From a virus: a stretch of DNA of 64,000 nucleotides. The notes beneath the pieces were generated by a model, which ran no database searches, had not been told where the DNA came from, and worked only from the letters and a program-made list of their open reading frames with translations. Shown here piece after piece: positions 8,386 through 62,681 of this stretch. Made by a program: the position numbers and the translations under genes. The stretch is from positions 1-64,000 of the IMG/VR virus record IMGVR_UViG_3300027969_003844; one strand, 5' to 3'. How positions within the stretch are numbered: position 1 is the first letter of the stretch; each line of letters begins with the position of its first letter.

Positions 8386-8733
8386 TTATTCGCCTGATAA
8401 ATCGGCATTTTCTTTATATATGCGATACTTTTGTAGTCTATCAAACTGACTTCGAGTAATACTTCTGCCATGATTAACTTGACGTAAAATCATTTGAACA
8501 TCAGCTGGCATATCTTTAAAAATTGGGTTTGGCACTGTTTTGGCACCTGGCTTGTCAACTTTAGAAAAATAGTCTCGCATGTCGGCAGTTGTGGTATCTG
8601 CTTTGGGCTTTTTGCCCCCAGTCACTGACTTGTAATACTCACCATTAAACCATGCTCGCATATCAGCCAGACTGGCTTCGTCGATCATTACATCGTCATT
8701 CATTATAGGCTGTTTTAAGTCTGATATCTTCAT
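8386..8733 (-). CDS. hypothetical protein, 115 aa
   Basis: Polar, partly helical (MKISDLKQPIMNDDVMIDEA). No Shine-Dalgarno; the ATG lies 5 nt after a CTAAATA late-type box, so the transcript may be leaderless or the true start may be an internal ATG. The SLADMRAWFNGEYY and DMRDYFSK segments form an internal repeat of D-M-R-x-[WY]-F. Unknown function, probably late. Confidence 0.55.
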   Translation of the reverse strand: MKISDLKQPIMNDDVMIDEASLADMRAWFNGEYYKSVTGGKKPKADTTTADMRDYFSKVDKPGAKTVPNPIFKDMPADVQMILRQVNHGRSITRSQFDRLQKYRIYKENADLSGE

Positions 8734-8745
8734 AAATATATTTAG
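8731..8745. promoter_or_regulatory. divergent late-promoter-like boxes
   Basis: CATAAATATATTTAG reads as CATAAATA on the plus strand (26 nt before ATG 8766) and CTAAATA on the minus strand (5 nt before ATG 8733). Both resemble T4 late TATAAATA, so one short segment may serve both divergent genes. Confidence 0.55.
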
Positions 8746-13514: not shown

Positions 13515-15476
13515 TTACCAACTGGTAGCACCAACAAATTTAGTCCAAATATTTGATTCGCCGTCAAAGTTTTTATTACAAACATAAAGAGTATCGTCTG
13601 AAATAGCGTAATACCCTTTTTTGTCCCCAATAGAACCAACTGAACTAGTTGGTACATTGACTAACCGTGATGATGAAGTGATAATACCGGTTTCATTATT
13701 ATACTCAACACCTTCACCTGCGCTCAATGACTGTCGTACGCGAGCCTCTGTAAAATAAAGGTTGTCACCTTCTCGCAGTGCCGAAGTAGTAGAATTGGTT
13801 AATAATGTTTCAAACGTTAGAACAGCACGAGCATCTGTGAAATATCTATGTGTGCCGCTTTCAGGAATGTCAGCTGAAGTAGGTAAGTTTGATAGGTCTC
13901 TAAAATCACCACTTCGTGCAACAGGCGCAAATTCTAAATTTGGCTTATTGGTTAAATCATTATAGCTACCTGTAAACAGTGATGGCTTATCAGTCAAGTC
14001 GTTATAGCTGCCACTGATTGCAACTGGCGCAAATCCAATATCACCGGTCTCAACGCCATTTACTACTTCACCAGCAAATATAATTTCACCACCATCTGTA
14101 TCAGCAGTGATAATACCAGTTGAACTGTTGTAGCTAAGGCCAGCACCTGTACTTATTGCGGCTCTTGCACGAGCATTTGTAAAGTATAGATTAATTTCGC
14201 CTTCTGACAAATCATCTGTGCTTGTAAGATTACTGTTATTTGTAGTGCCGTTATTGATATTTGCTACCAAGCTATCAAGATAAGCGGCAGCCCAGTTACG
14301 ATTTATGTATTCGTGTACTGATAGGTAGTTTAATACCAAATCATCCGAGTAGTACTTGTTGGTATTGCCTTGGGCTATATTATCAGTTGTTAATGTAGGT
14401 AGTAGAGTTGTTAGTGCGCTAGAAACTCTGGCATCAGTGAAATATAAGTGATTGGTTCCTTCAACTAAAGAATCGGTTGTTCTTGTAGCAAAGAATGATA
14501 CTACACGTTGGTCAACTCTACTATCTGTATAGTATTTGCGGTTGCCTTCGGGAATATCTGATGTACTTGGTTTGTTGACCAAGTCCGTCCAGCTACCAGA
14601 TGTTGCCAAAGTAGCAAATACAGGACGATCGATGATATCAACCCAATTACCACTAAACGCATTTGGTTTATCTAGTAAATCACTATAGCGACCAGTGTAT
14701 GCAACATTGGCCAGGGTATCTAGTGAATATTGTTGATTAATAAAAGATGAGCCAGTAAATACAATTTCGCCACCGTCTATGTTAAGAAGATCTGATGAAA
14801 CTACGTCATTAATTTGACTGTCAACGTAATTTTTTGTAGCTGCCTGCGCTGGATCAACAATTGCTCCAGTTAAAGTTATTGAAGTAAATGTAGGAGTATC
14901 ACTAATGCTCAACTGTCCAGTTGTGGTGCTGTAATCTAAATTGCCGTCATTTGGTACAATTGCGGCCCTTGCACGAGCATTTGTAAAATATAGGTTTGAC
15001 GAGCCTTCACTGATAGCATCAGTGTTTCCACTAAAAGAAATTACTCCAGTTGTACTATTGTAGCTAATACTACCACTTGCACTAATTGCGCCGCGAGCAC
15101 GAGCAGTAGTAAAGAATAAATGAGTATTACCTTCAATAACATTATCACTATTTTTTGTTCCTAGCCATGTGTTTGCAGTTGATGTAAAATCTGTTGTATT
15201 TAATTTGCCAGTGATAATACTGTAAATATTTGGATTGTTATTAATTGCGGCAGCAAGCTCTTTTAGAGTGTTCAATGCCGCAGGTGCGTTGTCAATTAAG
15301 TTAGCAATTGCAGTGTTGACATACGTTACTGTTGCCAATCCCTTATTACTAACCACAGTGTCAAATATGTTACCAGCGGTAGTTTTTTCTGTTTGCCCTC
15401 CGTGAACTAGGACAAAATTATCTTCGATGGAAATTGATGGTGCTAACCCCAGTTGTGTAATTTTTACATTTGACAT
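13515..15476 (-). CDS. tail-fibre/structural protein with LYFTNARA repeats
   Basis: 653 aa. Many copies of EGxxNLYFTxARARxAI alternating with LSYNSSTGxIxxS and GSYNDLTDKP units, giving a beta-solenoid-like fibre. AATKNYVDSQIND and ELAAAINNNPN helices are typical of T4-like long fibres. The same modules occur in the 1125-aa fibre at 17866-21243, so the two share an origin. Starts by TAATG overlap with the upstream gene; last of the fibre genes. Confidence 0.8.
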   Translation of the reverse strand: MSNVKITQLGLAPSISIEDNFVLVHGGQTEKTTAGNIFDTVVSNKGLATVTYVNTAIANLIDNAPAALNTLKELAAAINNNPNIYSIITGKLNTTDFTSTANTWLGTKNSDNVIEGNTHLFFTTARARGAISASGSISYNSTTGVISFSGNTDAISEGSSNLYFTNARARAAIVPNDGNLDYSTTTGQLSISDTPTFTSITLTGAIVDPAQAATKNYVDSQINDVVSSDLLNIDGGEIVFTGSSFINQQYSLDTLANVAYTGRYSDLLDKPNAFSGNWVDIIDRPVFATLATSGSWTDLVNKPSTSDIPEGNRKYYTDSRVDQRVVSFFATRTTDSLVEGTNHLYFTDARVSSALTTLLPTLTTDNIAQGNTNKYYSDDLVLNYLSVHEYINRNWAAAYLDSLVANINNGTTNNSNLTSTDDLSEGEINLYFTNARARAAISTGAGLSYNSSTGIITADTDGGEIIFAGEVVNGVETGDIGFAPVAISGSYNDLTDKPSLFTGSYNDLTNKPNLEFAPVARSGDFRDLSNLPTSADIPESGTHRYFTDARAVLTFETLLTNSTTSALREGDNLYFTEARVRQSLSAGEGVEYNNETGIITSSSRLVNVPTSSVGSIGDKKGYYAISDDTLYVCNKNFDGESNIWTKFVGATSW

Positions 15477-17865: not shown

Positions 17866-20800
17866 TTATACACTACTCAACAAGAACTGTACAACGCAAT
17901 GAGTTGTTTGTCCCACACCTGCACTAGCACCAGTGATACCTTTAGTCAATCCAATAGTCATTGTGTTAACTGCTGGATCAAATGCGCTAAATGCACTTGG
18001 ACTACCACTAGAGCCACCACCTACTAATGTTCTACCTGCTGTAAAGCTACTGGTCACTGCTGTTGCGACATAGGTATTGGTAGATCTTTGATAAGCATAA
18101 ACTTGTGTATTCAACGGAGCACATACACTGCCGGTAAATGTAAATGTTACTGTAGCAACTGTTGAAGTTGCGGTTGCAATAACTGCGCTGATGCCACCAT
18201 TCAAAACACTAACACTTGCTAGGTTACCAGATGCATCATACTCAACTTGTACTGCGGCACGGAAGATACCAGAACTTGAACTTCCGCCTCCGCCACCTGA
18301 ACTAATGGTTGTTGGTGCCCATGCACTACCATTCCATGCAAGTGCTTGCCCTGTAGTTGGAGTTGTATTAGTAACGTCAGCAAACGCATTTAAGTTACTT
18401 TGTCCAAGGCGTGTATCAAACCGTGCGTTTGTATAATATAAGTTTGTACCACCTTCTGTAACATTATCTGTACTTGTGCTTAGACTAAATGTACCAGTTG
18501 AACTGTTGTAGCTTAAACCAGTACCAGCGGCCAAGGCGTTACGAGCAAGTGTATCGCTAAAGTATTTGTTTGTTGTACCTTGATTTAAGTTATCAGTTGT
18601 TTTTGCCGCTAATCTATTGTCCCAACGAGTGTTGGTAAAATATTGATTAGTTGAACCTTCGCTAACATCATCTGTGTTTAATACAACAACACCAGTTTTT
18701 GAATTAACACTTGATACAGCACCACTGCCACCTGCAACACTGCTAGGCGTCCAAGCACTACCTGTCCAAGTCAATACTTGTCCGTTAGTTGGTGCTGTTG
18801 TAACTGTATCAACGTCTGACAATGCGTTAATGCTACTTGCACCAATTCTAACATCTGCACGAGCATCTGCGCGAGTATTTGTAAAGTACAAATTAGCGCC
18901 TTCAGTGATATAGCTTGTGTTAGCACGATATTTGATTTGACCAGTTGCATCATCATAACTGATTAAGCTAGTAATGTTACTGTCACTGATAGAACTTAGT
19001 GCTAATCTTGATCTAGCATCTGTATAATATAGTCTAGTACCTTCTGTGATATCACTGGTTGTTACAGCATTCAATGCTGTTGTCATAGTAATGTTGCCAC
19101 TACCATCAAAACTTGTTAAACCAGTTACTTTACCACTTAGTGTTAATGTACGAGCGGTTGTCCACTTGTTTGCCTTGTTAGCCAAATCAACTTCTAAGTC
19201 ATACCCAGGTTGTGTAGTATTGCCTAAGCCGTAAACTTGTACTGCGCCTGCTTTATTATTGACAGTATAGCTTGTTCCAGTGGCACCAGTAGATCCTGTG
19301 TCACCCTTGACACCTTGAATACCTTGTGGTCCTGTAGCGCCAGTAGCACCTGTGCTACCTTGTGGTCCAACTACGTAGCCTGCATTAATGGTGCTTCCAT
19401 CACTTAATGTAATTTGTAAATTGCCGCCTGCGTCAACCACAACACCACCATTGGCAATGCTTCGTCCTGCAGGGCCGGCGGCCCCCTGTGGACCCTGTGG
19501 ACCAACAGTACTACCAGCATTGATGGTACTAGCATCAGTTAGTGTAACTTGTAAATTGCCCGAACCGTCAACAACTACGCTATAAATTCCAAGACCAGCA
19601 GGTCCTGTGTCACCCTGTGGACCCTGAGCACCAGTAGCACCTGTATCGCCTTTTGGTCCAACTACACTACCAGCATCTACAGTTGAGCTGTCGGTTTTTG
19701 TAATAATTAAGTGACCACTGCCATTTACAGTAGCAGTACTTACGCCAACTCCATTTGTGCCATTTGTGCCATTTGTACCAGCTGGCCCTGCGGCACCTGT
19801 AGCACCTGTATCACCTTTAGCGCCAGTAGCACCTGTATCACCCTTTGGTCCAATAACCAAACCAGCATCAATAATTGAGCTGTCGGATCTAGTAATAATT
19901 AATCTACCACTGCCGTTAACTGCGGCGCCACTTACAGATAAACCTGCTGGGCCTTGGCTACCTGTATCACCCTTGATACCTTGACTACCAGTTGCACCAG
20001 TCGCACCTTGTGGTCCAATTACGCTACCAGCATTGATAGTTGAGTTGTCTTGTTTAGTTAAAATTAACTCGCCACTGCCATTTACAGCGGCAGCTTTGAT
20101 ACCGGATACATTTCCAGCATCAACTACTGTGTTATCGCTTAATGTTAATTGTAAACGACCTGCTAGAGTTACGGCTGCGGCACTAATGCTTAAACCAATA
20201 TCACCCTTTGGACCTTGTGGACCTGTATCACCTTTGGCACCACTGTTATTAACTGCTATCCACTGTGAGCCATTCCAACCTAAAAGCTGTCCAGCACTTG
20301 CGTTGGCCAAGTTTACATTAGATAGTTGACCTAATGTTGTTGTACTTGGTAAAGCGGCAATAGTGTCGTCAACATATTTCTTAGTTGCGGCCTGTAAGTC
20401 TAGAGTAGGAGCACCTGACAATGTCAATGCACCAGTCATTGTGCCGCCAGACTTTAATAATACGTCTGCGGCAAAGTTTGGATTGTTAGCAATAGCCGCT
20501 GACAATTCATTCAATGTGTTTAGTAAATTAGGAGCACCGTTGACTAAATTACCAATTTGATTGTTTACATAAGTCTGTGTAGCATAACCATTTGTAGTTA
20601 AGTAATTACCCAACGCTGTTAAGTCAATACTACTGCCACCACCGACTGCACTGATAACACCATTGCCATCAATAACAATTGTAGTACCATCAACCTTAAC
20701 ACCGCCCTTTGTTGCTATACTTGCAGTAGGTAATATATATTCAGCTGGGATTATTGGCTTGTTTGTTAAGTCGTTGTAGTTTCCACTGAAACTATTTCCA

Positions 20801-21243
20801 CCACCTTGTACTGTTACATTAGCAACACCATCTACTACGTTAACACTTGCACCACTTACAAAGTTAATGCTGGTAAAGTTTCCGCGATTTGAAGTGTTCT
20901 CATACACTGAAATGTTATTAAGACCGCCTGTAATCGTAGCAATATTATTTTGAACAGAAACGCCAGGACCAACAAAGTTTAAAGTTGTTGCATTACCACG
21001 TGCAGTACCATTTTCTTTAACAGTGATATTGCCAGAACTATTTCCACCACCAGAGCCGCCTGCTAAACTTAAAACAAGTTTGCCAGTTGCGTCATCGTAT
21101 GCGGCTTGCAAGCCAATGCTAATGTCACTGCCGCCAACGGTAATTTCATTTGCTACAATGTCTTGAACTTCTTCCTCAGTGAGGCCACCGCCGCCACCTG
21201 TTCCGCCTTGTAGTTGTCCCCCTGAAGATGCGTTAATCGCCAT
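17866..21243 (-). CDS. collagen-like tail fibre protein, 1125 aa
   Basis: Residues about 335-658 hold G-x-y triplets (GAKGDTGPQGPKGD and others) interrupted by six beta modules of the type NGSGxLIITxxDSSxIDAG. N-terminal Gly-rich linker; helix NTLNELSAAIANNPNFA and AATKKYVDDTI blocks; after residue 660 LYYTDARSR/LYFTNTRADA repeats and LTWTGSAWTPS units. Probably a trimeric receptor-binding fibre. AGGAG precedes ATG 21243. Confidence 0.85.
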   Translation of the reverse strand: MAINASSGGQLQGGTGGGGGLTEEEVQDIVANEITVGGSDISIGLQAAYDDATGKLVLSLAGGSGGGNSSGNITVKENGTARGNATTLNFVGPGVSVQNNIATITGGLNNISVYENTSNRGNFTSINFVSGASVNVVDGVANVTVQGGGNSFSGNYNDLTNKPIIPAEYILPTASIATKGGVKVDGTTIVIDGNGVISAVGGGSSIDLTALGNYLTTNGYATQTYVNNQIGNLVNGAPNLLNTLNELSAAIANNPNFAADVLLKSGGTMTGALTLSGAPTLDLQAATKKYVDDTIAALPSTTTLGQLSNVNLANASAGQLLGWNGSQWIAVNNSGAKGDTGPQGPKGDIGLSISAAAVTLAGRLQLTLSDNTVVDAGNVSGIKAAAVNGSGELILTKQDNSTINAGSVIGPQGATGATGSQGIKGDTGSQGPAGLSVSGAAVNGSGRLIITRSDSSIIDAGLVIGPKGDTGATGAKGDTGATGAAGPAGTNGTNGTNGVGVSTATVNGSGHLIITKTDSSTVDAGSVVGPKGDTGATGAQGPQGDTGPAGLGIYSVVVDGSGNLQVTLTDASTINAGSTVGPQGPQGAAGPAGRSIANGGVVVDAGGNLQITLSDGSTINAGYVVGPQGSTGATGATGPQGIQGVKGDTGSTGATGTSYTVNNKAGAVQVYGLGNTTQPGYDLEVDLANKANKWTTARTLTLSGKVTGLTSFDGSGNITMTTALNAVTTSDITEGTRLYYTDARSRLALSSISDSNITSLISYDDATGQIKYRANTSYITEGANLYFTNTRADARADVRIGASSINALSDVDTVTTAPTNGQVLTWTGSAWTPSSVAGGSGAVSSVNSKTGVVVLNTDDVSEGSTNQYFTNTRWDNRLAAKTTDNLNQGTTNKYFSDTLARNALAAGTGLSYNSSTGTFSLSTSTDNVTEGGTNLYYTNARFDTRLGQSNLNAFADVTNTTPTTGQALAWNGSAWAPTTISSGGGGGSSSSGIFRAAVQVEYDASGNLASVSVLNGGISAVIATATSTVATVTFTFTGSVCAPLNTQVYAYQRSTNTYVATAVTSSFTAGRTLVGGGSSGSPSAFSAFDPAVNTMTIGLTKGITGASAGVGQTTHCVVQFLLSSV

Positions 21244-21265: not shown

Positions 21266-21640
21266 TTATAGGCTTAAAATCACTCGTTCACAAGTGCCTA
21301 GTTGATCTATCGTTTGATTTAAATGGCTTCTTACAATCTTAGCTCTTAGATATACAAAATTGCCAACAATGTTAAATGTTTCAACTTTGGTCTCAGCACT
21401 GTCTACGCTAAAATAAGGCAATCCGCTAGTACCTAATCCAATTGGAAACCAATCAGATTCAGCTGGATTATCGCTAATTGATGCTTCAATCATTAAACGA
21501 CCTTTGAAATTTTTTAAATAAAAACCAATGGTATGCATGCCATCAGCAAACCCATAATAACCATCAGCGCGAGTTGCTGGTCCGGTTTGGTCCAGCGAAA
21601 GTCCGTCTGTGATTAGCATGTTGGTGTTACGCATTGACAT
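21266..21640 (-). CDS. fibre/virion accessory protein, 124 aa
   Basis: GYYGFADGMHTIGFYLKNF and RLMIEASISDNPAESDWFPI recall beta-sandwich proteins coded beside fibres in T4-like phages. Starts MSMRNTNMLITDGLSLDQ. Overlaps nothing; 22 nt before the giant fibre gene. Receptor binding or fibre assembly is inferred from context. Confidence 0.6.
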   Translation of the reverse strand: MSMRNTNMLITDGLSLDQTGPATRADGYYGFADGMHTIGFYLKNFKGRLMIEASISDNPAESDWFPIGLGTSGLPYFSVDSAETKVETFNIVGNFVYLRAKIVRSHLNQTIDQLGTCERVILSL

Positions 21641-21644
21641 GTAA

Positions 21645-21809
21645 TTATTCCTTAATAATTTCTACCACCACATCTGCACCAACAAGTTCTTGCACAATTG
21701 CTTCTAAGCTAACGGTTGTATCGTCGCTGACAATTGTATCTACATGTTCATTATCTTTATGTAGTTTGCTTACCTTGATTACAATGTGTTCTTCGTGTAT
21801 TTTTGCCAT
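21645..21809 (-). CDS. hypothetical acidic protein, 54 aa
   Basis: MAKIHEEHIVIKVSKLHKDN, then acidic helix. Its Shine-Dalgarno GGAGG lies in the 3' arm of the hairpin at 21814-21842, and the late-type box is in the hairpin loop. First gene of the fibre operon. The longer ORF (to 21932) would read through that hairpin and is rejected. Confidence 0.65.
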   Translation of the reverse strand: MAKIHEEHIVIKVSKLHKDNEHVDTIVSDDTTVSLEAIVQELVGADVVVEIIKE

Positions 21810-21842
21810 AAAAAAGCCTCCAACTATATTTAGCGGAGGCTT
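21810..21842 (-). promoter_or_regulatory. terminator-like hairpin with a late-type promoter in its loop
   Basis: On the minus strand AAGCCTCC (21835-21842) pairs with GGAGGCTT (21814-21821); six T residues follow directly, then ATG 21809. The loop carries CTAAATA (21827-21833). Transcripts from upstream would terminate or hide the GGAGG ribosome site; transcripts started at the loop box would begin near 21820 with the site free. This matches the logic known for some T4 late genes. Confidence 0.75.
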
Positions 21843-21861: not shown

Positions 21862-22494
21862 TTACTCTGGATTACGTATTCGTTCAAAACGATCAATAAA
21901 ATCGCCCAATTGTAATCGCAAAAGTGCGGCATCTTCTGAAGATCTCAAGTAAAGAAACAAAGGTTGTCCCCATCCAGATCTATTAGCTTTAGATTCATTA
22001 CTGATAATGTGTTTCAATAACCCACTGGCATGCCAATCCAGTGGATCCAATGAATTAACTGCTGATTTTAGTGTATCAATTCCTGTGTTTATAAATGAAT
22101 CAGTGTACTTGATACATGCTCGAACTTCAAACTTCCCGTACCATGGAGTTGCTCTAATAATGTCACGGGTGTGTGTTAGTAATAAACGTTCAGCATTGGC
22201 ATTGCTAGGTTTCCAGACTTCAAGTGCAAGACTGTCCCATTTATCTAATAATAGTTCTAACTCCGATTCGGTGTGTAAAAATACACTTAAATTTGATTCT
22301 TGCCGCAAGCCACAATCTTCAAAGTTGTCACGACACCAAGATTTAATAGTATTAGAATGTTGCCTTCGTTGTTGAAGTTCTGTATTATTTGAACGATAGC
22401 CATAGTGACTAGATTTACGCTCTGGTAAAATAGCAATGATGGCCTTATAAGGCCATTTTTTCCAAAATAGCCTTTGAGTAGCATGTACCTTCAT
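21862..22494 (-). CDS. hypothetical protein, 210 aa
   Basis: Begins [18 protein letters not shown]; mixed alpha/beta, rich in Trp and Leu. Similar WPYKA-type openings occur in proteins of marine T4-like phages with unknown function. Start overlaps the ClpA stop as TAATG, so it is translated from the same mRNA as clpA, peptide deformylase and dnaJ-like genes. It is followed by the hairpin at 21810-21842. Confidence 0.6.
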   Translation of the reverse strand: MKVHATQRLFWKKWPYKAIIAILPERKSSHYGYRSNNTELQQRRQHSNTIKSWCRDNFEDCGLRQESNLSVFLHTESELELLLDKWDSLALEVWKPSNANAERLLLTHTRDIIRATPWYGKFEVRACIKYTDSFINTGIDTLKSAVNSLDPLDWHASGLLKHIISNESKANRSGWGQPLFLYLRSSEDAALLRLQLGDFIDRFERIRNPE

Positions 22495-24707
22495 TATGAA
22501 ATTACTAATTCATTGTTAACACAACTTACGTTATGTGATAACATTCCGTCTTTGATAATACGTTTAGCAATAGGCAACCGAATCTGCTCGTTTATTAAAC
22601 GCTTCATTGGTCGAGCACCCATAGTTTCGCTGTATCCGTTTTCAGCCAAATAGTCCAACGAGCTATCGTCATAGTTAACTGTCTGTCCTTGTTCAACAAG
22701 TTGATCAACAATTTGACGCATAAACTTGTCTGCAATACGCCGAGTTACTTCTTTTGCCAAACGATTGAACTTGACCACTGCGTCTAAACGATTTCGGAAT
22801 TCAGGAGTAAAGAATCTCTTTACCGCTTCATCAGTTGCACTGTCATTGAAACCTCCGCCAAAGCCAATGATGTTCTTTTCACTGTCGGCCGCACCTAAAT
22901 TGCTGGTTAAAATAACAAATGCATTTCGAGCACTGGCCTGTTTATTGTCACTGCCAGTAACAATACCATTGTCCATTAAACCAAGCAAGACTTGAATAAC
23001 ATCTGGATGTGCTTTTTCAATTTCATCAAATAGTAGTACGCAATTAGGTACACGCTCTAGTTCATTGATTAACTTACCAGAACCAGTTTTACCTTCGCCA
23101 TATCCAACGTATCCCGGAGGACTACCAATTAGCGAAGCAATTTTATGAGGTTCACGATACTCGCTCATATCAAAACGGATCATCTCCATGCCCAGACCTT
23201 CGGCAAGTTGATTTGCAAGTTCTGTTTTACCAGTACCAGTTGGGCCAACAAACAAGAAATTGGCCATTGGGCGATTGACTTCTTTAAGGCCCGACTTGGC
23301 AATATACACCATGTTCATTAGTCGCTCAATTGCATCATCTTGACCAAACACATTTGTACGCATACGACTTTCTAAGTCTGTAACTGCAATGTTTTTATGT
23401 TCGCCAAGTTGTTCAATTGGTACGCGAGTAATTTCACTGACTTCTAGTCTGATATTATCTTTGTTTACTTCTGAACCAATTGGTGCGTTTGTGACACGTA
23501 ATCGTGACATTGATGCATCAATAATATCAATGGCCTTATCTGGCAACTTCTTATCTAGCATGTACTTCATTGAAAGATCAATTGCTAGATCAATTGCTTC
23601 TTCGCGGATACTTAACTTATGATAATCAGAATAAATTGGAGCAACTCGACGCAACATAATTCGAGTATCTTCAACTGACATTTCATTAATGTCAACACGA
23701 GTAAATCTACGTAGTAACGCACGGTCTTTTTCAAAGTTCTCACGGAACTCGTCGTAAGTGGTGCTACCAATACAGCGCAAGCGGCCTTTCTCTAGTGCTG
23801 GCTTTAACAAATTTGCAACGTCCATGCTGCCTTGTCCGCCGGAACCTGCACCCATGATCATATGAATTTCATCAATGAATAAGATGGCATCATCACGTTC
23901 TTCTAGAGCTTCAAGTACATGTTGCATACGTTCTTCAAAGTCTCCTCGATAACGTGTGCCAGCAAGAAGCTTGCCAATATCCAGGCTATAAATTGTTTTT
24001 TTCTTTAAGACTTCTGGCACTTCGTTGCGAACAATGGCCACAGCTAGTCCTTCGACAATTGCAGTTTTACCTACACCAGGGTCACCAACCATAATTGCAT
24101 TGTTTTTCTTCTTGCGTGTCAGGGTTTGTGCAAGACGGAACACTTCTTTCTCACGCCCAATCAACGGATCAATAAGTTTTTTCTCTGCACTTCTGTTCAA
24201 GTTTGTTGTGTACTTGTTTAGAACTTTTTCACTGTCGCGCTTCTTAGCAGTTTTACTTTCCTTGCTATGAGTATCTTTTAACTTACCAACATAATTTAAA
24301 ATTACTTCTTTGGTAACACCGTTCTTGCCCAAGAAGAAATTGGCATGACTATTTTTTTCACTGGTAATACTAATCAGTAAATCCAATGGTTCCATGTGAC
24401 CACGGCCAGTAAAGATTGCCTGTGTATAAGCACGATTGAAGCAACGTTCTAAAGTTGCAGTTTTGCGTGGCTTGGCCACACCTTCAACCCGGATGTCTTC
24501 TTGATCTCGTAACCATTCGTTGATCTCATCACCAAGTGACATTACATCAACATTTAATTCTCCAAGAACATTACGAATCTCTTCTTCGTCGAGCATGACT
24601 CGAAGAATATGTTCTAGCGTAACGTATTCATGTTCTCTGCTTAATGCATCCTGGAATGCACGGGCAATAACCTCGTTGATACGTTGATTATCTGATTCTT
24701 GGCTCAT
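22494..24707 (-). CDS. clpA: ClpA-type AAA+ unfoldase
   Basis: 737 aa with a Clp N-domain (1-140), first AAA+ (Walker A GDPGVGKT 208-215, Walker B LFIDE 276-280) and second AAA+ (GPTGTGKT 488-495, LLFDE 558-562). The IIGFGGG loop at 613-619 aligns with the IGL loop of ClpA that docks on ClpP. Full length for the family. No ClpP is in the window, so it should feed substrates to host ClpP or act alone as a remodelase. Stop/start ATGA overlap with the deformylase gene. Confidence 0.93.
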
Positions 24708-25204
24708 ATAACTACCTTCTTAAATTTACGTAACTTTTTAATTTGCTTAGTTCTAGCTAACTGTAGTCCCAATTTTGATGAGCGATCAGTGAATGTAACA
24801 CCATTTAAATGATCAAGCTCATGTACATAACATCTAGCTAAAATTCCATCAAATCGCTGTTCTACTACCTCACCATTGAGTGTGGTATAACGAGCATGTA
24901 CCCACTTTGGCCTACGAATATTTAACCAAAGTGCAGGGAATGATAAACAACCTTCTGGTCCTATTTCGTCAGGCCCGTTTTCTATAATTGTTGGATTAAT
25001 ACAAACATAGTTGGGTCCTTCTTGTGGACCCATAACAAACATCCGTACTGCCATTCCACACTGTGGTGCAGCCAGGCCAATGCCTCCATTGCTCCACATT
25101 ATCAAAAACATATCTTTGGCCAAAGATTCTAAATTAATATCTGCGTCTGTTACAGGAATAGACGCTTTTAATATTGGATGATTTTCTTCTACAAGTTCTA
25201 ACAT
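24704..25204 (-). CDS. def: peptide deformylase
   Basis: 166 aa. All three motifs: GIGLAAPQ (41-48), EGCLSFP (84-90, C86) and HELDH (128-132). C86, H128 and H132 bind the metal and E129 is the catalyst, so it should be active in removing N-terminal formyl groups. Phage deformylases are often shorter; this one retains a C-terminal basic helix (KQIKKLRKFKK). Co-translated with clpA. Confidence 0.95.
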   Translation of the reverse strand: MLELVEENHPILKASIPVTDADINLESLAKDMFLIMWSNGGIGLAAPQCGMAVRMFVMGPQEGPNYVCINPTIIENGPDEIGPEGCLSFPALWLNIRRPKWVHARYTTLNGEVVEQRFDGILARCYVHELDHLNGVTFTDRSSKLGLQLARTKQIKKLRKFKKVVI

Positions 25205-25216
25205 ATGATAAGTTTA

Positions 25217-25999
25217 CTAAATTCTTCCCTGTAAGTCAATGATCGATTTGTTCATATCTTCACTGGACAGTTGTGGTATCTTTACAATTACTACAATGAA
25301 TGCATTTCCTCTAAGAGAAGAACCTCGTATATTCATGCCCCTATTCTTTAATCTTAACTGAGCGCCAGGTTGAACTCCAGCTGGTATACTTACTTCTATG
25401 CTTGATCCATCAATATCCGTTACCATAAGCTTAGATCCAATCATTGCATCCCATACAGAAATTGTACATTCTGCATACAGGTCATGATTTTTAACTTCCC
25501 AGGTACCATGTGGTTGAATGGCAAGTTTAACGTACAAATCGCCTGGGGGCTGTTGTGGCAACAACTCTCCGCCTTCGCCTGCATATCGTATTTTAATATC
25601 TTTGGTTGAGCCTGATGGAAAATTAACCCATATTTTCTTCAGAGTGCCTTCCGGTGTAGTAAATTTAATTTCCCTGGAAAATCCAGTGTGCGCTTCTTCC
25701 AGTGTTGCATGAGTTGTAATATGAATGTCGGGATTTCTAACATTACGTGCAGACCAATGAAAGTCAAAATTACCAGATGTTGAACGACCTTGGTTCCTAA
25801 AAAAGTCTCCGAACGCATCGGTTGTATCTGCTTTGCCAGATACTATCATCTCATAAGCTTCTTTGATTTTTTTAAATTCTTCAGCATCACCGCCACGGTC
25901 GGGATGATGTATCATTGCTAATTTACGATAAGCCTGTTTGACTTCTTCGTCTGTAGCACCGTTTGTGAGTCCGAGTATTTTATAGTAATCTGATGTCAC
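25217..25999 (-). CDS. DnaJ/CbpA-like J-domain co-chaperone
   Basis: 260 aa. J domain at 1-70 with HPD at 32-34; no Gly/Phe-CxxCxGxG zinc region; residues 90-250 resemble the two substrate-binding beta domains of DnaJ/CbpA (PGDLYVKLAIQPHGTW, IPAGVQPGAQLRLKNRGM). It probably recruits host DnaK. It sits in a run with deformylase, ClpA and IF-1. Confidence 0.93.
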   Translation of the reverse strand: MTSDYYKILGLTNGATDEEVKQAYRKLAMIHHPDRGGDAEEFKKIKEAYEMIVSGKADTTDAFGDFFRNQGRSTSGNFDFHWSARNVRNPDIHITTHATLEEAHTGFSREIKFTTPEGTLKKIWVNFPSGSTKDIKIRYAGEGGELLPQQPPGDLYVKLAIQPHGTWEVKNHDLYAECTISVWDAMIGSKLMVTDIDGSSIEVSIPAGVQPGAQLRLKNRGMNIRGSSLRGNAFIVVIVKIPQLSSEDMNKSIIDLQGRI

Positions 26000-27529: not shown

Positions 27530-28043
27530 TTGGCACCTCCTCATTGTTTTCTAAACCCTGTTCTCCGTCAAGTTCCTCTTCATATGCAGATTCGATACTA
27601 TCATAATCAATATCGTCTGTGTCTTTGATGTCTTCACTTACATCTAGTAACGTTTTAGGAAATCTAATGTTTACTAACCAAACTTTCTTTTTTATACTCT
27701 TTGGTATGCGTTGTCCATCAACAGTACTAATAAGATCTTCGGGGCCGCTGACCTTAGAAAATGTTTCTAAAGTGTCTTCACCCATTTTAACCTTACAGCC
27801 GTTTTTAACAAGACGCATGGCTGCATCCGGATTTGGCATTAATTTATGTGGGTACATTAATGTACATTCTACCCAATGACGTTCTACAAATGGACCGTCG
27901 ACAATCTCACCTTTGATCCAATTTTCGTAGGCATATACATCCATACGATCCAGAACGCGGTCGATTTCAACTAGTGTGTCAATAACGTTAGGACTACGGT
28001 GTATTGTATCTAAGTTTTGATAAATGGTATGTTGTTTTAGCAT
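27510..28043 (-). CDS. conserved T4-like phage hypothetical protein, 177 aa
   Basis: RSPNVIDTLVEIDRVLDRMD, YAYENWIKGEIVDGP and WVECTLMYPHKLMPNP are conserved-looking blocks; the C-terminus is highly acidic. Known in marine T4-like phages without assigned function. ATG 28043 lies 7 nt after a CTAAATA late-type box and has no Shine-Dalgarno. First gene of the long late-type operon that continues through IF-1, spanins, dnaJ-like, def and clpA. Confidence 0.65.
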   Translation of the reverse strand: MLKQHTIYQNLDTIHRSPNVIDTLVEIDRVLDRMDVYAYENWIKGEIVDGPFVERHWVECTLMYPHKLMPNPDAAMRLVKNGCKVKMGEDTLETFSKVSGPEDLISTVDGQRIPKSIKKKVWLVNIRFPKTLLDVSEDIKDTDDIDYDSIESAYEEELDGEQGLENNEEVPSEEVPT

Positions 28044-28050
28044 GATAAGA

Positions 28051-28057
28051 TATTTAG
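28051..28057 (-). promoter_or_regulatory. late-promoter-like CTAAATA box
   Basis: CTAAATA ends 7 nt before ATG 28043. If it works like the T4 late -10, the mRNA start falls at or next to the ATG, giving a leaderless or near-leaderless message. Confidence 0.5.
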
Positions 28058-56606: not shown

Positions 56607-58067
56607 CTAAAATATTGAAATCTGATGCAGGTCTTGAAATTTTCTAGCATTTGCCCAGGTGTTGACCAAGGGCTCGCCCTTGATATTTAAACTGGTATTC
56701 ATTAATACTGGACACCCACTTGCATCATACCATCTCTCTAGCAATTGTCTGAATACAGGGTTATCAAGACCATTGACTGTCTGAACACGGCTACTGTTAT
56801 CAACATGGCACACTCCCGGTAATATATCTGGTACCTTGCATTGAGCAACAAACTGCATGTAAGGACTAGATACAATTGGCATATCAAAATAATCAGCGGC
56901 ATGTTCTTCTAAGATAGCAGGCGCAAACGGTCTAAATTGTTCGCGCTTTTTAATAGTATTCATTCTTGGCTTGGCTTCTTTGCCTCTAGGATCACATAAT
57001 AAACTACGATTGCCTAGTGCCCGTGGCCCAAACTCTGCACGACCATTTGCCACTGCCACCACTTCGCCTGCTAGAAGCTTTTTAACAATACCATCAATGT
57101 CTAATTCTCTATCAATGTTTGTACCCAGATATGGATGTTCCCATTTTAAATGTTGACCAGTATAAGCAGCCACGGCGCCAATTGCACTGCCAGCATCTCC
57201 GGGATTTGGCATTATCCATACATTATTGAATACCTTAGATTTTGCAATCCTACTGTTGGCAACACAATTAAGTGCAACACCGCCCATGAATACTAAATTT
57301 TCACTTGTGGTGTTCATACGCATGTTAATAACAGTTTCCATCAGGTAGTCTTCAACAATGCTTTGTACACATGCGGCAATGGTGAACTTATCAGCAGTCA
57401 CAGGAGGCTTCCACCACAAACAGCCCCTGTGCAAATTGTGTCTTAACTTAAACTTGGGTGCTGAAAATTCAATGAAGAATTCTTTTAATATTTCAGATTT
57501 TAGCAATTGATCAACATGTCCGTATGCTGCCATGCCCATAAGAATATATTCTTCCTCATTGGGTTTGAGTCCCAGGTACTGAGTAAATGCAGAATAAAAT
57601 AGGCCAATGCTGTCAGGATAACGCTTGCGCCATTTAGATTTTATCTTGTGGCCATGTCCTTCCCAAATGCTAACACTATCCCATTCTCCAATTGCATCAA
57701 CAACTAAGATCGCGGCGTTATCAAAGCCACTGGTATAATATCCTGCGGCTGCATGACTTTTATGGTGTTTACCATAATGCAAAGGTATGTTGTTAAGGCC
57801 AACACGTTTTAATTCTTCTTTGGCACTTTCGTAATACGGACGCTGACCAGCATAAAGATTACGTGTACTTTTTAGTAATGGGCTTTCGAACCAGACAATG
57901 TCAGTGGGAGTACCATAATCAAACATTTCCTGTACCATGTCATAATTTAAAACACGGTCATTTTTATTTCTGCTGTACCGCTCTGCATGTCCAGCCCATA
58001 CTATACGATTTCCGTTGATAAGAGCTAAACTGGCATCGTGATTTAATCCTGTTGCTCCTAGAATCAT
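56607..58067 (-). CDS. carbamoyltransferase (TobZ/CmcH/NodU family)
   Basis: 486 aa. N-terminal Kae1-like domain (GLNHDASLALI, GVALNCVANSRI, HHKSHAA zinc-type His) and C-terminal GRAEFGPRALGNRSLL plus NTSLNIKGEPLV. Family members carbamoylate hydroxyl groups on sugars or antibiotics using carbamoyl phosphate and ATP. Start a few nt after the radical SAM gene ends. Substrate may be a product of the neighbouring radical SAM proteins or a DNA-base or glycan hydroxyl. Confidence 0.9.
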   Translation of the reverse strand: MILGATGLNHDASLALINGNRIVWAGHAERYSRNKNDRVLNYDMVQEMFDYGTPTDIVWFESPLLKSTRNLYAGQRPYYESAKEELKRVGLNNIPLHYGKHHKSHAAAGYYTSGFDNAAILVVDAIGEWDSVSIWEGHGHKIKSKWRKRYPDSIGLFYSAFTQYLGLKPNEEEYILMGMAAYGHVDQLLKSEILKEFFIEFSAPKFKLRHNLHRGCLWWKPPVTADKFTIAACVQSIVEDYLMETVINMRMNTTSENLVFMGGVALNCVANSRIAKSKVFNNVWIMPNPGDAGSAIGAVAAYTGQHLKWEHPYLGTNIDRELDIDGIVKKLLAGEVVAVANGRAEFGPRALGNRSLLCDPRGKEAKPRMNTIKKREQFRPFAPAILEEHAADYFDMPIVSSPYMQFVAQCKVPDILPGVCHVDNSSRVQTVNGLDNPVFRQLLERWYDASGCPVLMNTSLNIKGEPLVNTWANARKFQDLHQISIF

Positions 58068-58068
58068 G

Positions 58069-60141
58069 TTAAACTCTTTTCCATTTGCTTATTGAAATGT
58101 CTGCTCCGCAATGGCATCGTAGGCTATTGCAAATAACAGGATTAGATAATGTATTCCAATTAAGCTGGTCAAAATCCTTGACTGTTCCAATTACACCACC
58201 CACATCACAATTGCCTCGTTTGATATGACCATTTTGATGAATGAACAGACTCTCTACACCAATGTTACAATTAAAATCGTAAAAGTTTGTTTGTCCTCTG
58301 TTAATTAATTCTTGTTCATTGTCAATGATTGCACGACTGCCATCACTGAATGTAGCAGTTGGGCTCCATGGTGGGAATGGACGATATATTGGATTAGTAA
58401 CAGAAATATTGTCAGGCGATGACCGTGTTTCGACTTGCTTAAAATTCTTGAAGAATTGATTTTGTTCTTCAGAATAATTAATTTTGGCCAACTTGGTTCT
58501 AGAACTACCGTATTGATCGTCGATATAAACTAGTTCAATTCTAGCAGTTGTAGTTTTCTTTGCTTGGTCGATAAACTCTAATGTTTCTTCCCAGTACAGT
58601 GGATCCATCATTATACGCAATGACACCATGGTTTGCATTGTGGCAATACGTATGCGATCTAAATAATCTTTGGCTGTGCCATTGGCAAATTCTTGTGCAG
58701 GATGAAAACTACATGCCGCATAGGTCAGATACTTAAAATTTTCTTTAATGAATCGAGGTGTTCTTGCCAGGTTAGTGGTAATGCCAACATTGCCACCCAA
58801 GCTATGTATCTTTTGAACCATTTGAGGGAAGAACGGGCTCATTGTTGGTTCCCCACCACTGAGTGAAAAATTAATGTACTTTCCATCCCAGTGCTCAAAC
58901 ATCTTATCCAAGAAAGGTTCAATTTGTTCCCAATTAAACAAATGATTCTTTCCATTATGCAAAGACGATGGACAATATCTACAAGAATAATTACAGATAT
59001 CGTTAAGAATCCAAGTTACTATCACACGCTGTTCATTTTTAACTCCAACAATTTTTTTCCCTTGTACTGGGATTGGAAACTTCCATTGTGGGATTCTTGC
59101 TCTGGGATTTTCAATGCTTGAGTACATTTGAATATCGTCAACAATTTCAACATCCTGAATACTTCTAAATTTATTTAAATTAATGGTAATGCCAGTCACT
59201 GGAGAATAGATTTTTTCAAGCTGAACATCAACCAATCGTCCAATGCCCATAAAACCATCTCTATTATCTGGGTTGCGCCACTGGTAATCTAAATGCTTGT
59301 CCTCATCAAGTTCTTTGAACTTTTTCCAGTCATTGGTCAATGTGTACGGATCATAGGAGTCGTGGATTAGATAGCATAGTATTTCATTAGACCAAGATTC
59401 TTGACGAGTAATAGAATTGTTATCAACTGCCACTCCATCCCCGTCGGCCACAACCCGGCTTAGATTTTTACCTTCTCCGTTGTAGCCCAGTACAAGATCA
59501 CCAAATCTTAAATGCGACATAAAACTGGCGGCATCTTCGTTGGTGATTTCAAAATCACGGCGTGGATTAAAACTAATTAATAAATTTGCTTCAGTTGACG
59601 ATGTTGTTTCAATTGTGGGCTTCTCATCCGACGCAGATGCTGCCAATGTTTCTGCAATGGTAATGGCATCATTTAGTTGATTAAATGTTGTGTGGAAGTC
59701 TTCGTTGAATGTAATACCTGGCCATTGTAATGCTTCTGGACTATCTGCAGGGATTCGTTGATACGCAGTATCCCACCATTTTTTAGATAACTTTTCTGCT
59801 ACTCTTCCTTGATACTCATCAAATTGTTTATACAAATAATCAATAGCAGCCTGGTCGTATTTTTTAAAAATTGTCAATGGCTTGTCATAGAAAAGATTAA
59901 TCTTACGAATGATGTTGGTCAGACGCTCTTCAAATGCCATGTCTTTGGTTAAAAGAGTACGAGTAAATTTAATACGTTTATCCCTGAAACTTTTTTCTCC
60001 AAATTTCATATCTTCCAGTAACTGGCACCATTTAGCAGACAGCTTGGTATTATACAATCTGTAATACAGATCATAACATTCCCAGTTTTCTGGATTTACC
60101 AATGTAATCCTAACATTTTTATTGTCAATAAACTTTCCCAT
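58069..60141 (-). CDS. radical SAM protein with N-terminal partner domain and SPASM-like tail, 690 aa
   Basis: From ATG 60141 with GAGG upstream. Residues 1-330 form a domain homologous to the adjacent product of 62754-64000 (shared FGD-[LV]-x-L-x-Y-...-G-K-...-D-x-D and WC patterns). Radical SAM motif C383-x3-C387-x2-C390 (CNYSCRYC), FSLSGGEPTM, ITTNLAR. C-terminal Cys cluster (FDCNIGVESLF, GNCDVGG, CNSLRCHC) could bind auxiliary Fe-S clusters. Looks like a peptide-modifying maturase; substrate unknown. Confidence 0.85.
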   Translation of the reverse strand: MGKFIDNKNVRITLVNPENWECYDLYYRLYNTKLSAKWCQLLEDMKFGEKSFRDKRIKFTRTLLTKDMAFEERLTNIIRKINLFYDKPLTIFKKYDQAAIDYLYKQFDEYQGRVAEKLSKKWWDTAYQRIPADSPEALQWPGITFNEDFHTTFNQLNDAITIAETLAASASDEKPTIETTSSTEANLLISFNPRRDFEITNEDAASFMSHLRFGDLVLGYNGEGKNLSRVVADGDGVAVDNNSITRQESWSNEILCYLIHDSYDPYTLTNDWKKFKELDEDKHLDYQWRNPDNRDGFMGIGRLVDVQLEKIYSPVTGITINLNKFRSIQDVEIVDDIQMYSSIENPRARIPQWKFPIPVQGKKIVGVKNEQRVIVTWILNDICNYSCRYCPSSLHNGKNHLFNWEQIEPFLDKMFEHWDGKYINFSLSGGEPTMSPFFPQMVQKIHSLGGNVGITTNLARTPRFIKENFKYLTYAACSFHPAQEFANGTAKDYLDRIRIATMQTMVSLRIMMDPLYWEETLEFIDQAKKTTTARIELVYIDDQYGSSRTKLAKINYSEEQNQFFKNFKQVETRSSPDNISVTNPIYRPFPPWSPTATFSDGSRAIIDNEQELINRGQTNFYDFNCNIGVESLFIHQNGHIKRGNCDVGGVIGTVKDFDQLNWNTLSNPVICNSLRCHCGADISISKWKRV

Positions 60142-60157
60142 TTTAGCCTCTAAAATT

Positions 60158-61390
60158 TTATATATCAAGTAATTTTGTGTAGTCTGTGCCATGCAGGCGA
60201 TCAAGACCCTGTAGGTAATCCAGTGTTTGTGGGTACAAGTGACTCCAGTCTTCCGAATTCATAAATGTAATTAATCCAGCAAGTCTTTGCATTTGTACGT
60301 TCTTGGGATAACTTGCAAAATATGTTTCTAGTTTTTCCGTTACACGTTTTTTCATTTCTATTGGCAATACCTTGACACAAAGATATTGTGGCCAATGCAA
60401 TGTACCTGGATAGAATATGCCACCAATATTACTTTTACGAACCTTGTCAAGATTTAGGTTTAATAACCATTCGGACATTTCTGGCAACCAATTTATATTC
60501 AATGCTTGAACAGTGCATAACACTTTGACAATGATATTGTCTGGAGTGTCATTGTATAATTTTAAATTACGTTCAACCACTTCCCACTTGGCCGGACGAC
60601 GAATGTAATCATTGACCCAATCGTAACCATCAATACTGAGCATTAGTTCTACTTGCTTAAAGCTTTTCCAAAGCTCAACAATTTCTGGATTGTGTATAGT
60701 ACAATTGGTATGGTAACGAAGTGTGATATTTTTAGCTAAATCACGTGCAACCAACTGTTCGATGATTGACTTGTGTTCTTTGATGTACAGTGGTTCGCCA
60801 CCACCAAAAATAATGTGTTGTATAGAGCTTGCATTTTCAAAGAAATCATCCCAAAATACTGGATCTTTATACCACTCAAACTGTTCGGCGGCATAGTTTT
60901 CAATTTTATATTTCCACTCATGTCTTGCGTCAGTTTCTAATGTTTCACTGAGTGTTTTTGCGTCCTTGACCCATTTGCTCGAGTCCTGTGGCCGACACAT
61001 TACACATTGTAGATTACATGTATTACCAAGTCGTAAATCTAGTGTAATCAAATCATGATCAACACGACCATTGCGGCGTGTACTATCAACTAGACCATCT
61101 AGGTACTCTGCATCCAAGTGCTTGTACCAGTATTGATTTTCGTTTTGCCTGTGACTTTTGATACCAGCAGATTCTTCTTTGTAACAAGTGGTACATGCAG
61201 GGAACTCACGTCCATTTAGCATTGCCAGTCTGGCTTCTGCAAAATGACTACTGTTCCAAATCTGTGACCAATTTGATTTATTTAGATTTAAGTTTGAGGC
61301 CTTGGCCACACAACATAACAATGCTGTACCATCATTATAAGTTGCCGCATGTATCCAAGGTAGAATACAAAAAGTTTTAGATTTATCCAT
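60158..61390 (-). CDS. twitch-type radical SAM protein, 410 aa
   Basis: N-terminal Cys-rich twitch-like part (C8, C26/C27, C66, C69: FCILPWIH, LLCC, CTTC), then radical SAM motif C125-x3-C129-x2-C132 (CNLQCVMC), FGGGEPL, HTNCT. Pattern known in phage radical SAM proteins. Paralogue of the 61383-62681 product; they overlap by 8 nt. Confidence 0.85.
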   Translation of the reverse strand: MDKSKTFCILPWIHAATYNDGTALLCCVAKASNLNLNKSNWSQIWNSSHFAEARLAMLNGREFPACTTCYKEESAGIKSHRQNENQYWYKHLDAEYLDGLVDSTRRNGRVDHDLITLDLRLGNTCNLQCVMCRPQDSSKWVKDAKTLSETLETDARHEWKYKIENYAAEQFEWYKDPVFWDDFFENASSIQHIIFGGGEPLYIKEHKSIIEQLVARDLAKNITLRYHTNCTIHNPEIVELWKSFKQVELMLSIDGYDWVNDYIRRPAKWEVVERNLKLYNDTPDNIIVKVLCTVQALNINWLPEMSEWLLNLNLDKVRKSNIGGIFYPGTLHWPQYLCVKVLPIEMKKRVTEKLETYFASYPKNVQMQRLAGLITFMNSEDWSHLYPQTLDYLQGLDRLHGTDYTKLLDI

Positions 61391-62681
61391 TGATCAATTC
61401 TGCTATTCTGCTATCAAGTACTGTGACATCTTGTTCCCTGCTTTTGTCCAGGCTTTTTGTATATGTGCGTAAACGTTGCAATTGTTCTTCCCAGTCATCG
61501 GCTCTTGGTTGTTGTAATAGACCAATTATACCATTAACACTATTACGGGTTAATTCATGTACATTCTTAGGCATCTGATTGTCTCGATAATCCATTAGTA
61601 ATTGACACGCTTTGGCTTTAAGATCGTCAGGTAATATGTTTACATTGAGATGATAAGGATGATAATTTATAAGCAGGTCAACAAAAATATCTTTATTGTG
61701 TTTTTTGTTGAGCTCGTCTACCCATAACAACGTTTCAACTAGATTAAAAACATTATAAACCTGCACCGTTGGAGTCACACCTAATTTGACATTTGATAGC
61801 TCTGCAATCTTCTCTACGTTTGCACTCAACTGACTCCACTTACTTGGCGCACGAATGTAATCATTTACAGCACCAATTCCGTCTAAGCTGGCATTAATAT
61901 TAATTTCATCAAATTGACTGATAATATCAAGAAACTTTTTATTAACGTTGGTACAGTTTGTATTAAAAAATAATAAAATATCTTTGCGACCTTGGTCAAT
62001 ACAAGATTGCATAAATTTAAAATTGTTGCCAATAAGTGTTGGCTCGCCTCCGGTCATATAGACTTTCTTTAATTCTGGAATTAATGCGATAATCTGGTCC
62101 CATAACACATCGCTTTCAAACCATTCCTGTTGATCCATGACTGATATAGGAAACTTTCCAAATGCTTTACGCCAAACTTGTCCGTATGCTGGGTCTGTTT
62201 CTGTAAGCTCTAAGTGTTCCTTGGCAATCTGACTAGAATTCCATGGGTTGCACATTCTACATTTGAGATTGCACAAGTTGCCTAATCGCAAATCCAAATA
62301 CACCAAATCAGAATTAACTACGCCACCGTGTATTTTTGCATAACGAACACGTTTGGCCAATTCTTCTTCGCCTAATCTCCAGGCCCATTCATTGTTTGCA
62401 TGTATTCTATTACTGTCTCGACCCGAATCTTCTTGAAGATAACAGACTTTACAACCTTCAATGTTATCACCATTGATCATTGCAGTACGAATATCACGCA
62501 TGTCTTGTCCGTTCCATGCATGTTCAATAAACTGATCCTGGATAGTAAAGAATTTACCATCCTCTTTTTTAAGTTTGTTGGCCGCGCCTTTCACCATGCA
62601 ACAATACCGTACAGTTGCATCTGTATTGACCATTAGGCTAACAAAAGGAATAGCGCAAAACGTTTTTGAAATTGGTTTCAT
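61383..62681 (-). CDS. twitch-type radical SAM protein, 432 aa
   Basis: Same layout as its neighbour: C9, C27/C28, C77, C80 at the N-terminus, radical SAM motif C137-x3-C141-x2-C144 (CNLKCRMC), MTGGEPTL, FFNTNCT, YIRAPSKW. The shared SLDGIG../SIDGYD..NDYIR block shows common descent. Both could act in sequence on one substrate. Confidence 0.85.
   Translation of the reverse strand: MKPISKTFCAIPFVSLMVNTDATVRYCCMVKGAANKLKKEDGKFFTIQDQFIEHAWNGQDMRDIRTAMINGDNIEGCKVCYLQEDSGRDSNRIHANNEWAWRLGEEELAKRVRYAKIHGGVVNSDLVYLDLRLGNLCNLKCRMCNPWNSSQIAKEHLELTETDPAYGQVWRKAFGKFPISVMDQQEWFESDVLWDQIIALIPELKKVYMTGGEPTLIGNNFKFMQSCIDQGRKDILLFFNTNCTNVNKKFLDIISQFDEININASLDGIGAVNDYIRAPSKWSQLSANVEKIAELSNVKLGVTPTVQVYNVFNLVETLLWVDELNKKHNKDIFVDLLINYHPYHLNVNILPDDLKAKACQLLMDYRDNQMPKNVHELTRNSVNGIIGLLQQPRADDWEEQLQRLRTYTKSLDKSREQDVTVLDSRIAELING

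Follow-up and report, generated by a model that had tools for sequence, protein, structure and literature searches.

Probable control of a tail fibre operon by promoter position, as in T4 gene e, in a jumbo-phage lineage

The window analysed here comprises the first 64,000 bases of the 105,199-base virus record IMGVR_UViG_3300027969_003844 (G000), and within it a hairpin carrying a late-type promoter in its loop and a ribosome site in its 3' arm stands directly before a tail fibre operon. This raises the question of whether the operon is closed to ribosomes in RNA read through from the upstream clpA operon and opened in RNA started at the hairpin itself. The T4 late genes e, soc, 49 and I-TevI have their Shine-Dalgarno sequence hidden by a hairpin in longer RNAs, and segB and the Aeh1 gene mobE are also late genes with a Shine-Dalgarno sequence hidden in longer RNAs (PMC3014915, PMC2988022); the preliminary description of this DNA had named e and soc as users of such a switch, as the same papers confirm.

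On the minus strand, the 29 bases from 21814 to 21842 read AAGCCTCC-GCTAAATATAGTT-GGAGGCTT and form a compound hairpin, identified by sequence, fold and conservation in 16 distinct copies. Its 5' arm AAGCCTCC (21842-21835) and 3' arm GGAGGCTT (21821-21814) make a stem of 8 bp around the 13-nt loop GCTAAATATAGTT (21834-21822), within which inner GCU/AGU pairs are possible. The Aeh1 variant of a T4-type late promoter, GCTAAATA, lies in the loop at 21827..21834 (-13 to -6 in the numbering of PMC1524935), with the heptamer CTAAATA at 21833-21827, and the Shine-Dalgarno sequence GGAGG (21817..21821) is part of the 3' arm, 7 nt from the ATG at 21809-21807. Both placements are as previously described. 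So is the 8-bp stem before ATG 21809; of the six T said to follow the stem (21810..21815, after GGAGGC, a possible intrinsic terminator tail), only four, at 21813-21810, extend beyond it, since the other two belong to the stem. Folding of the 42-nt RNA of the element gives -15.3 kcal/mol (z = -3.4), a pattern search of the whole 105-kb record finds the element once, and an Rfam search gave no match. The hairpin is real and goes beyond chance.

In order to see whether the element is maintained in related phages, we used IMG/VR protein searches, which returned many distant relatives and about 20 close ones, the latter with 81-86% identity in ClpA. The element stands directly before the 54-aa gene in every close relative holding that gene; of the 16 distinct copies, 15 (window included) came from the protein searches and one (L148) from a DNA pattern. 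Neither GCTAAATA nor GGAGG varies among these copies, and the spacing between TAAATA and GGAGG is always 4-5 nt. Stem pairs 1-6 form in all 16 and pairs 7 and 8 in 15, counted on a hand-anchored alignment since MAFFT split one stem column. Compensatory double changes occur at two pairs (G-C to A-U in L010, A-U to U-A in L041), and they are few because the Shine-Dalgarno sequence itself constrains the 3' arm; the inner extensions vary, yet they pair (GCU/AGU, AAG/CUU, AACUG/CAGUU, ACGC/GUGU). The comparison in related phages thus bears out the element with its loop motif, stem and Shine-Dalgarno spacing. Among distant relatives, the 54-aa gene is preceded by a significant hairpin only in some (L030, L040, L058; L079 is borderline), while many have TAAATA there without one, which counts against a switch; as the hairpin is significant in only some of them, the switch would come and go while the promoter stays.

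The genes on either side, all on the minus strand, belong to two promoter classes. The ATG opens a conserved 54-aa gene (21645..21809; its start MAKI is conserved in relatives), the first of the putative late operon, which is followed by a 124-aa virion structural protein (21266..21640; PHROG 13657 and 14467), a tail fibre protein with collagen repeats (17866..21243; PHROG 6320 and others, PF01391) and, further downstream in the same direction, a tail or structural protein (13515..15476; PHROG 697). Upstream lie a 210-aa ORF (21862..22494), the stop codon of which is 19 nt before the stem, a ClpA-type ATPase (22494..24707; PHROG 4871, E 3.5e-239) and a peptide deformylase (24704..25204; PF01327) at the start of the early-type operon. 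Pfam has no match for the 54-aa, 124-aa and 210-aa proteins, the 54-aa protein has no counterpart among named phages, and a DNA search of named phages gave no match; the nearest named relatives of the ClpA protein come from jumbo phages, with Agrobacterium phage Atu_ph07 (43%) first.

A sigma70-like promoter, TTGACT-17-TAAACT (25211..25239), precedes the deformylase start by 6 nt. With 9 of 12 positions it has a shuffle p of 0.42, which counts against the switch, and because it reaches only 9/12 the early class rests on the relatives, where a TTGACN-17-TA(T/A)AAT-like promoter stands 6-15 nt before the deformylase gene; of 12 such upstream regions, 11 have it with a score of 10-12 of 12. Outside those 12 regions, L015, L016, L036 and L041 carry a sigma70-like promoter before clpA; in other relatives a near-consensus sigma70 promoter stands before clpA or dnaJ. 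No sigma70-like promoter scoring at least 10 was found before the 54-aa gene in relatives. With a conserved sigma70-like promoter at the clpA side and none before the 54-aa gene, the sequence therefore marks the upstream operon as early-type and that of the fibre genes as late-type, so that the 54-aa and fibre genes appear to lie downstream of an early-type transcription unit. A late start resembling GCTAAATATCTTACT-ATG is also seen before a structural gene at 28043-28057 (-), where TAAATA is 7-8 nt from the ATG in all 15 readable relatives; the gene is putatively leaderless as well. Late transcription of the clpA operon could also come from the late promoter at 28057, which counts against the switch. 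On account of this CTAAATA we considered a late timing for the whole clpA stretch, but did not adopt it for the deformylase-clpA part, given the sigma70-like promoter that is conserved there in relatives.

The motif in the loop matches late promoters of known type, which are TATAAATA at -13 to -6 in T4 (PMC1524935) and CTAAATA from -12 in Aeh1 (PMC1524935, PMC2988020). The canonical TATAAATA occurs 0 times in the window vs 6.1 expected by shuffling. Of all hexamers in front of ORFs, TAAATA has the strongest strand bias, both in the 285-kb relative G002, with 43 sense and 7 antisense copies, and in G003 (65/15). A gp55-type late sigma gene (PHROG 12791) is present in six large relatives with E values from 2.3e-81 to 5e-93, and G002 has both this gene and a window-type hairpin. 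The gene is not on the 105-kb fragment itself, which counts against the switch. Searches for gp33 and gp45 (PHROG 254, 223) gave no real match in eight records, where the controls gave no match either. The phage sigma of this lineage has its best match in PHROG 12791 and not in the T4 family, PHROG 234. The earlier proposal of a T4-type late program for the fibre operon gains support from the known T4-type promoter variant and from the gp55-type sigma in the large relatives. Because of the T4/Aeh1 promoter geometry, to which the TAAATA-GGAGG distance conforms, the predicted +1 of late RNA is base 21821, with which GGAGG begins. The late start had been proposed to lie inside the loop: the T4-type promoter is indeed there, but the predicted +1 opens the 3' arm.

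With its start so placed by GCTAAATA, the late RNA would lack the 5' arm, and the predicted accessibility of the Shine-Dalgarno sequence differs accordingly between the two RNAs. Its predicted unpaired probability is 0.00 in the read-through RNA of the window and of all close relatives; for late RNA it is 0.79 in the window and 0.28-0.82 across close relatives, and shuffled upstream flanks rarely recreate the block (p 0.00-0.02). These predictions agree with the preliminary description, according to which the site is sequestered in read-through RNA and free in RNA from the late promoter. It had further stated that read-through RNA would terminate or sequester the site; the predictions support sequestration, while termination lacks support in some relatives, one subclade being without the T-run.

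In our view the fibre operon is probably preceded by a switch that, like that of T4 gene e, works through the position of the promoter. In the course of events that we infer, comprising start site, timing, translational block and termination, early RNA made from the sigma70-like promoter ahead of the deformylase and clpA genes would reach the hairpin, where it may stop at the T-run. In RNA that reads through, the stem would lock GGAGG, so that the 54-aa and fibre genes would stay untranslated early. Later, RNA polymerase with a gp55-type sigma would initiate at GCTAAATA in the loop, and the late RNA, with its 5' end at GGAGG or beside it and with no 5' arm, would be translated.

To assess how far such elements recur, we scanned six genomes in an unbiased manner for any stem hiding a Shine-Dalgarno sequence, which at a score of at least 14 yielded 23 hairpins, two of them orthologous copies of the window element. 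TAAATA occurs in the loop of 11/23 of these hairpins vs 200/1379 starts (p = 1.3e-4, uncorrected) and has the lowest p of all hexamers in such loops; T4 put through the same scan returned, among others, e and I-TevII. Hairpins that join a TAAATA loop, a Shine-Dalgarno 3' arm and the ATG of an ORF number two in this record and four in G002; 20 dinucleotide shuffles of either sequence contain none. The second case in the record, at 77782 (-), reads CTTTAGTCGAGG-TGCTAAATA-CCTCGACTAAAG before a radical SAM gene at 77756; this region (77756-77790, minus strand) and L002 have a perfect hairpin of 12-13 bp with GCTAAATA in the loop before a radical SAM/SPASM gene. In the window, three radical SAM proteins are clustered with a Nol-like carbamoyltransferase at 56607-62681 (-). 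Hairpins of this kind with unrelated stems precede head-tail adaptor genes in L122 (PHROG 211) and G002 (95394, by resemblance) and SNase-like genes in L109 (by Pfam) and G007 (15566, by resemblance). This points to use that recurs for the same kinds of gene (head-tail adaptor, nuclease) with unrelated stem sequences in different phages.

Among other explanations, the hairpin might mainly be the intrinsic terminator of the clpA operon, with the late promoter restarting transcription and the hiding of the Shine-Dalgarno sequence incidental. The T-run is kept in 13/16 copies, TTTTT is found within the Shine-Dalgarno-ATG spacer in only 18/1379 starts, and the stem is G+C-rich, all of which speak for a terminator. 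However, the subclade L008/L006/L148 has lost the T-run and keeps the stem, GCTAAATA and the Shine-Dalgarno sequence, the other hairpin/late-promoter genes at G000 77756, G002 95394, G003 199636 and G007 69898 lack a T-run as well, and the 13-nt loop is long (a terminator scan with a loop limit of 8 made no call here). We therefore regard a terminator as the main function as unlikely, and the element is possibly a switch fused to a terminator, given the T-run in most copies. That a plain late promoter stands here in surroundings that pair by chance, the hairpin having no role, would fit the distant relatives with TAAATA and no significant hairpin before the 54-aa gene; it is very improbable in view of the double changes in L010 and L041, the inner extensions that differ but pair, and the shuffles, in which flanks rarely and genomes never (0 in 20 each) reach such a hairpin.

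Two further readings carry hardly any weight with us. A translational-coupling hairpin, opened by ribosomes ending the upstream gene, has a parallel in siphophage-like contigs, which have CCTCC-GCTAAATA-GGAGG with the upstream stop inside the loop (7/8 checked, plus L118 and L136); in the window the stop precedes the stem by 19 nt, and a terminating ribosome would therefore not open the hairpin. An RNA operator, with a phage repressor protein on the loop as for T4 RegA or gp43, would agree with the invariance of the loop bases, but it is the late promoter that these bases make up, its octamer also precedes genes without a hairpin, and other genes are served by unrelated stems. As to the siphophage-like contigs, hairpins of the form CCTCCG-CTAAATAA-CGGAGG with the upstream stop in the loop occur in L110, L118, L125, L126, L130, L134, L136, L140 and L144; they are likely translational-coupling hairpins because of this stop codon, and we discounted such hits to the element pattern.

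The promoter-position switch favoured here is closest to that of T4 gene e (lysozyme), in which the Shine-Dalgarno sequence likewise lies in the 3' arm, the promoter in the part that forms the 5' arm or the loop, and the late RNA lacks the 5' arm (PMC3014915). The gene e hairpin recovered by our scan reads AATACCTTCTA-TAAATACT-TAGGAGGTATT-ATG; whereas it carries TATAAATA before a lysis gene and is without a T-run, the window has GCTAAATA, a T-run and the 54-aa/fibre operon. With T4 soc, 49, I-TevI and segB and with Aeh1 mobE it shares a late gene downstream of early or middle genes and a Shine-Dalgarno sequence hidden in read-through RNA (PMC2988022), but the genes are others, the sequence is unrelated, and covariation across the lineage is seen here. 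The heptamer CTAAATA and its variant position are those of the Aeh1 late promoter (PMC1524935, PMC2988020), in a different phage lineage. The element probably belongs to the known T4 switch of e, soc, 49 and I-TevI; new are the fibre operon, the lineage-wide covariation and the T-run as a possible terminator. A textbook T4 switch, known mostly of single genes in close T4 relatives, would now extend, with comparative evidence, to a distant jumbo-phage lineage, and testable transcription start sites are gained in uncultured phages.

Leaderless starts seem common among the late genes of these phages. Putative cases in the window are at 8733-8745 and 28043-28057 (-), with others in G001, G002, G003, G005 and G007. 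We offer as a tentative idea, somewhat more apt to fail than to hold, that in this jumbo-phage lineage one register gives two licences by transcription start, through Shine-Dalgarno-hiding TAAATA-N5-GGAGG hairpins and through leaderless TAAATA-N5-ATG genes lacking a Shine-Dalgarno sequence; if true, the leaderless AUG of the latter would work only at the RNA 5' end. TAAATA and ATG are most often 4-6 nt apart, a sharp peak (22/46 in G002, 0/48 in T4) in which Shine-Dalgarno sequences are nearly absent; the peak is present in all five large relatives, and for several genes the short arrangement is retained in orthologues at 34-61% identity.
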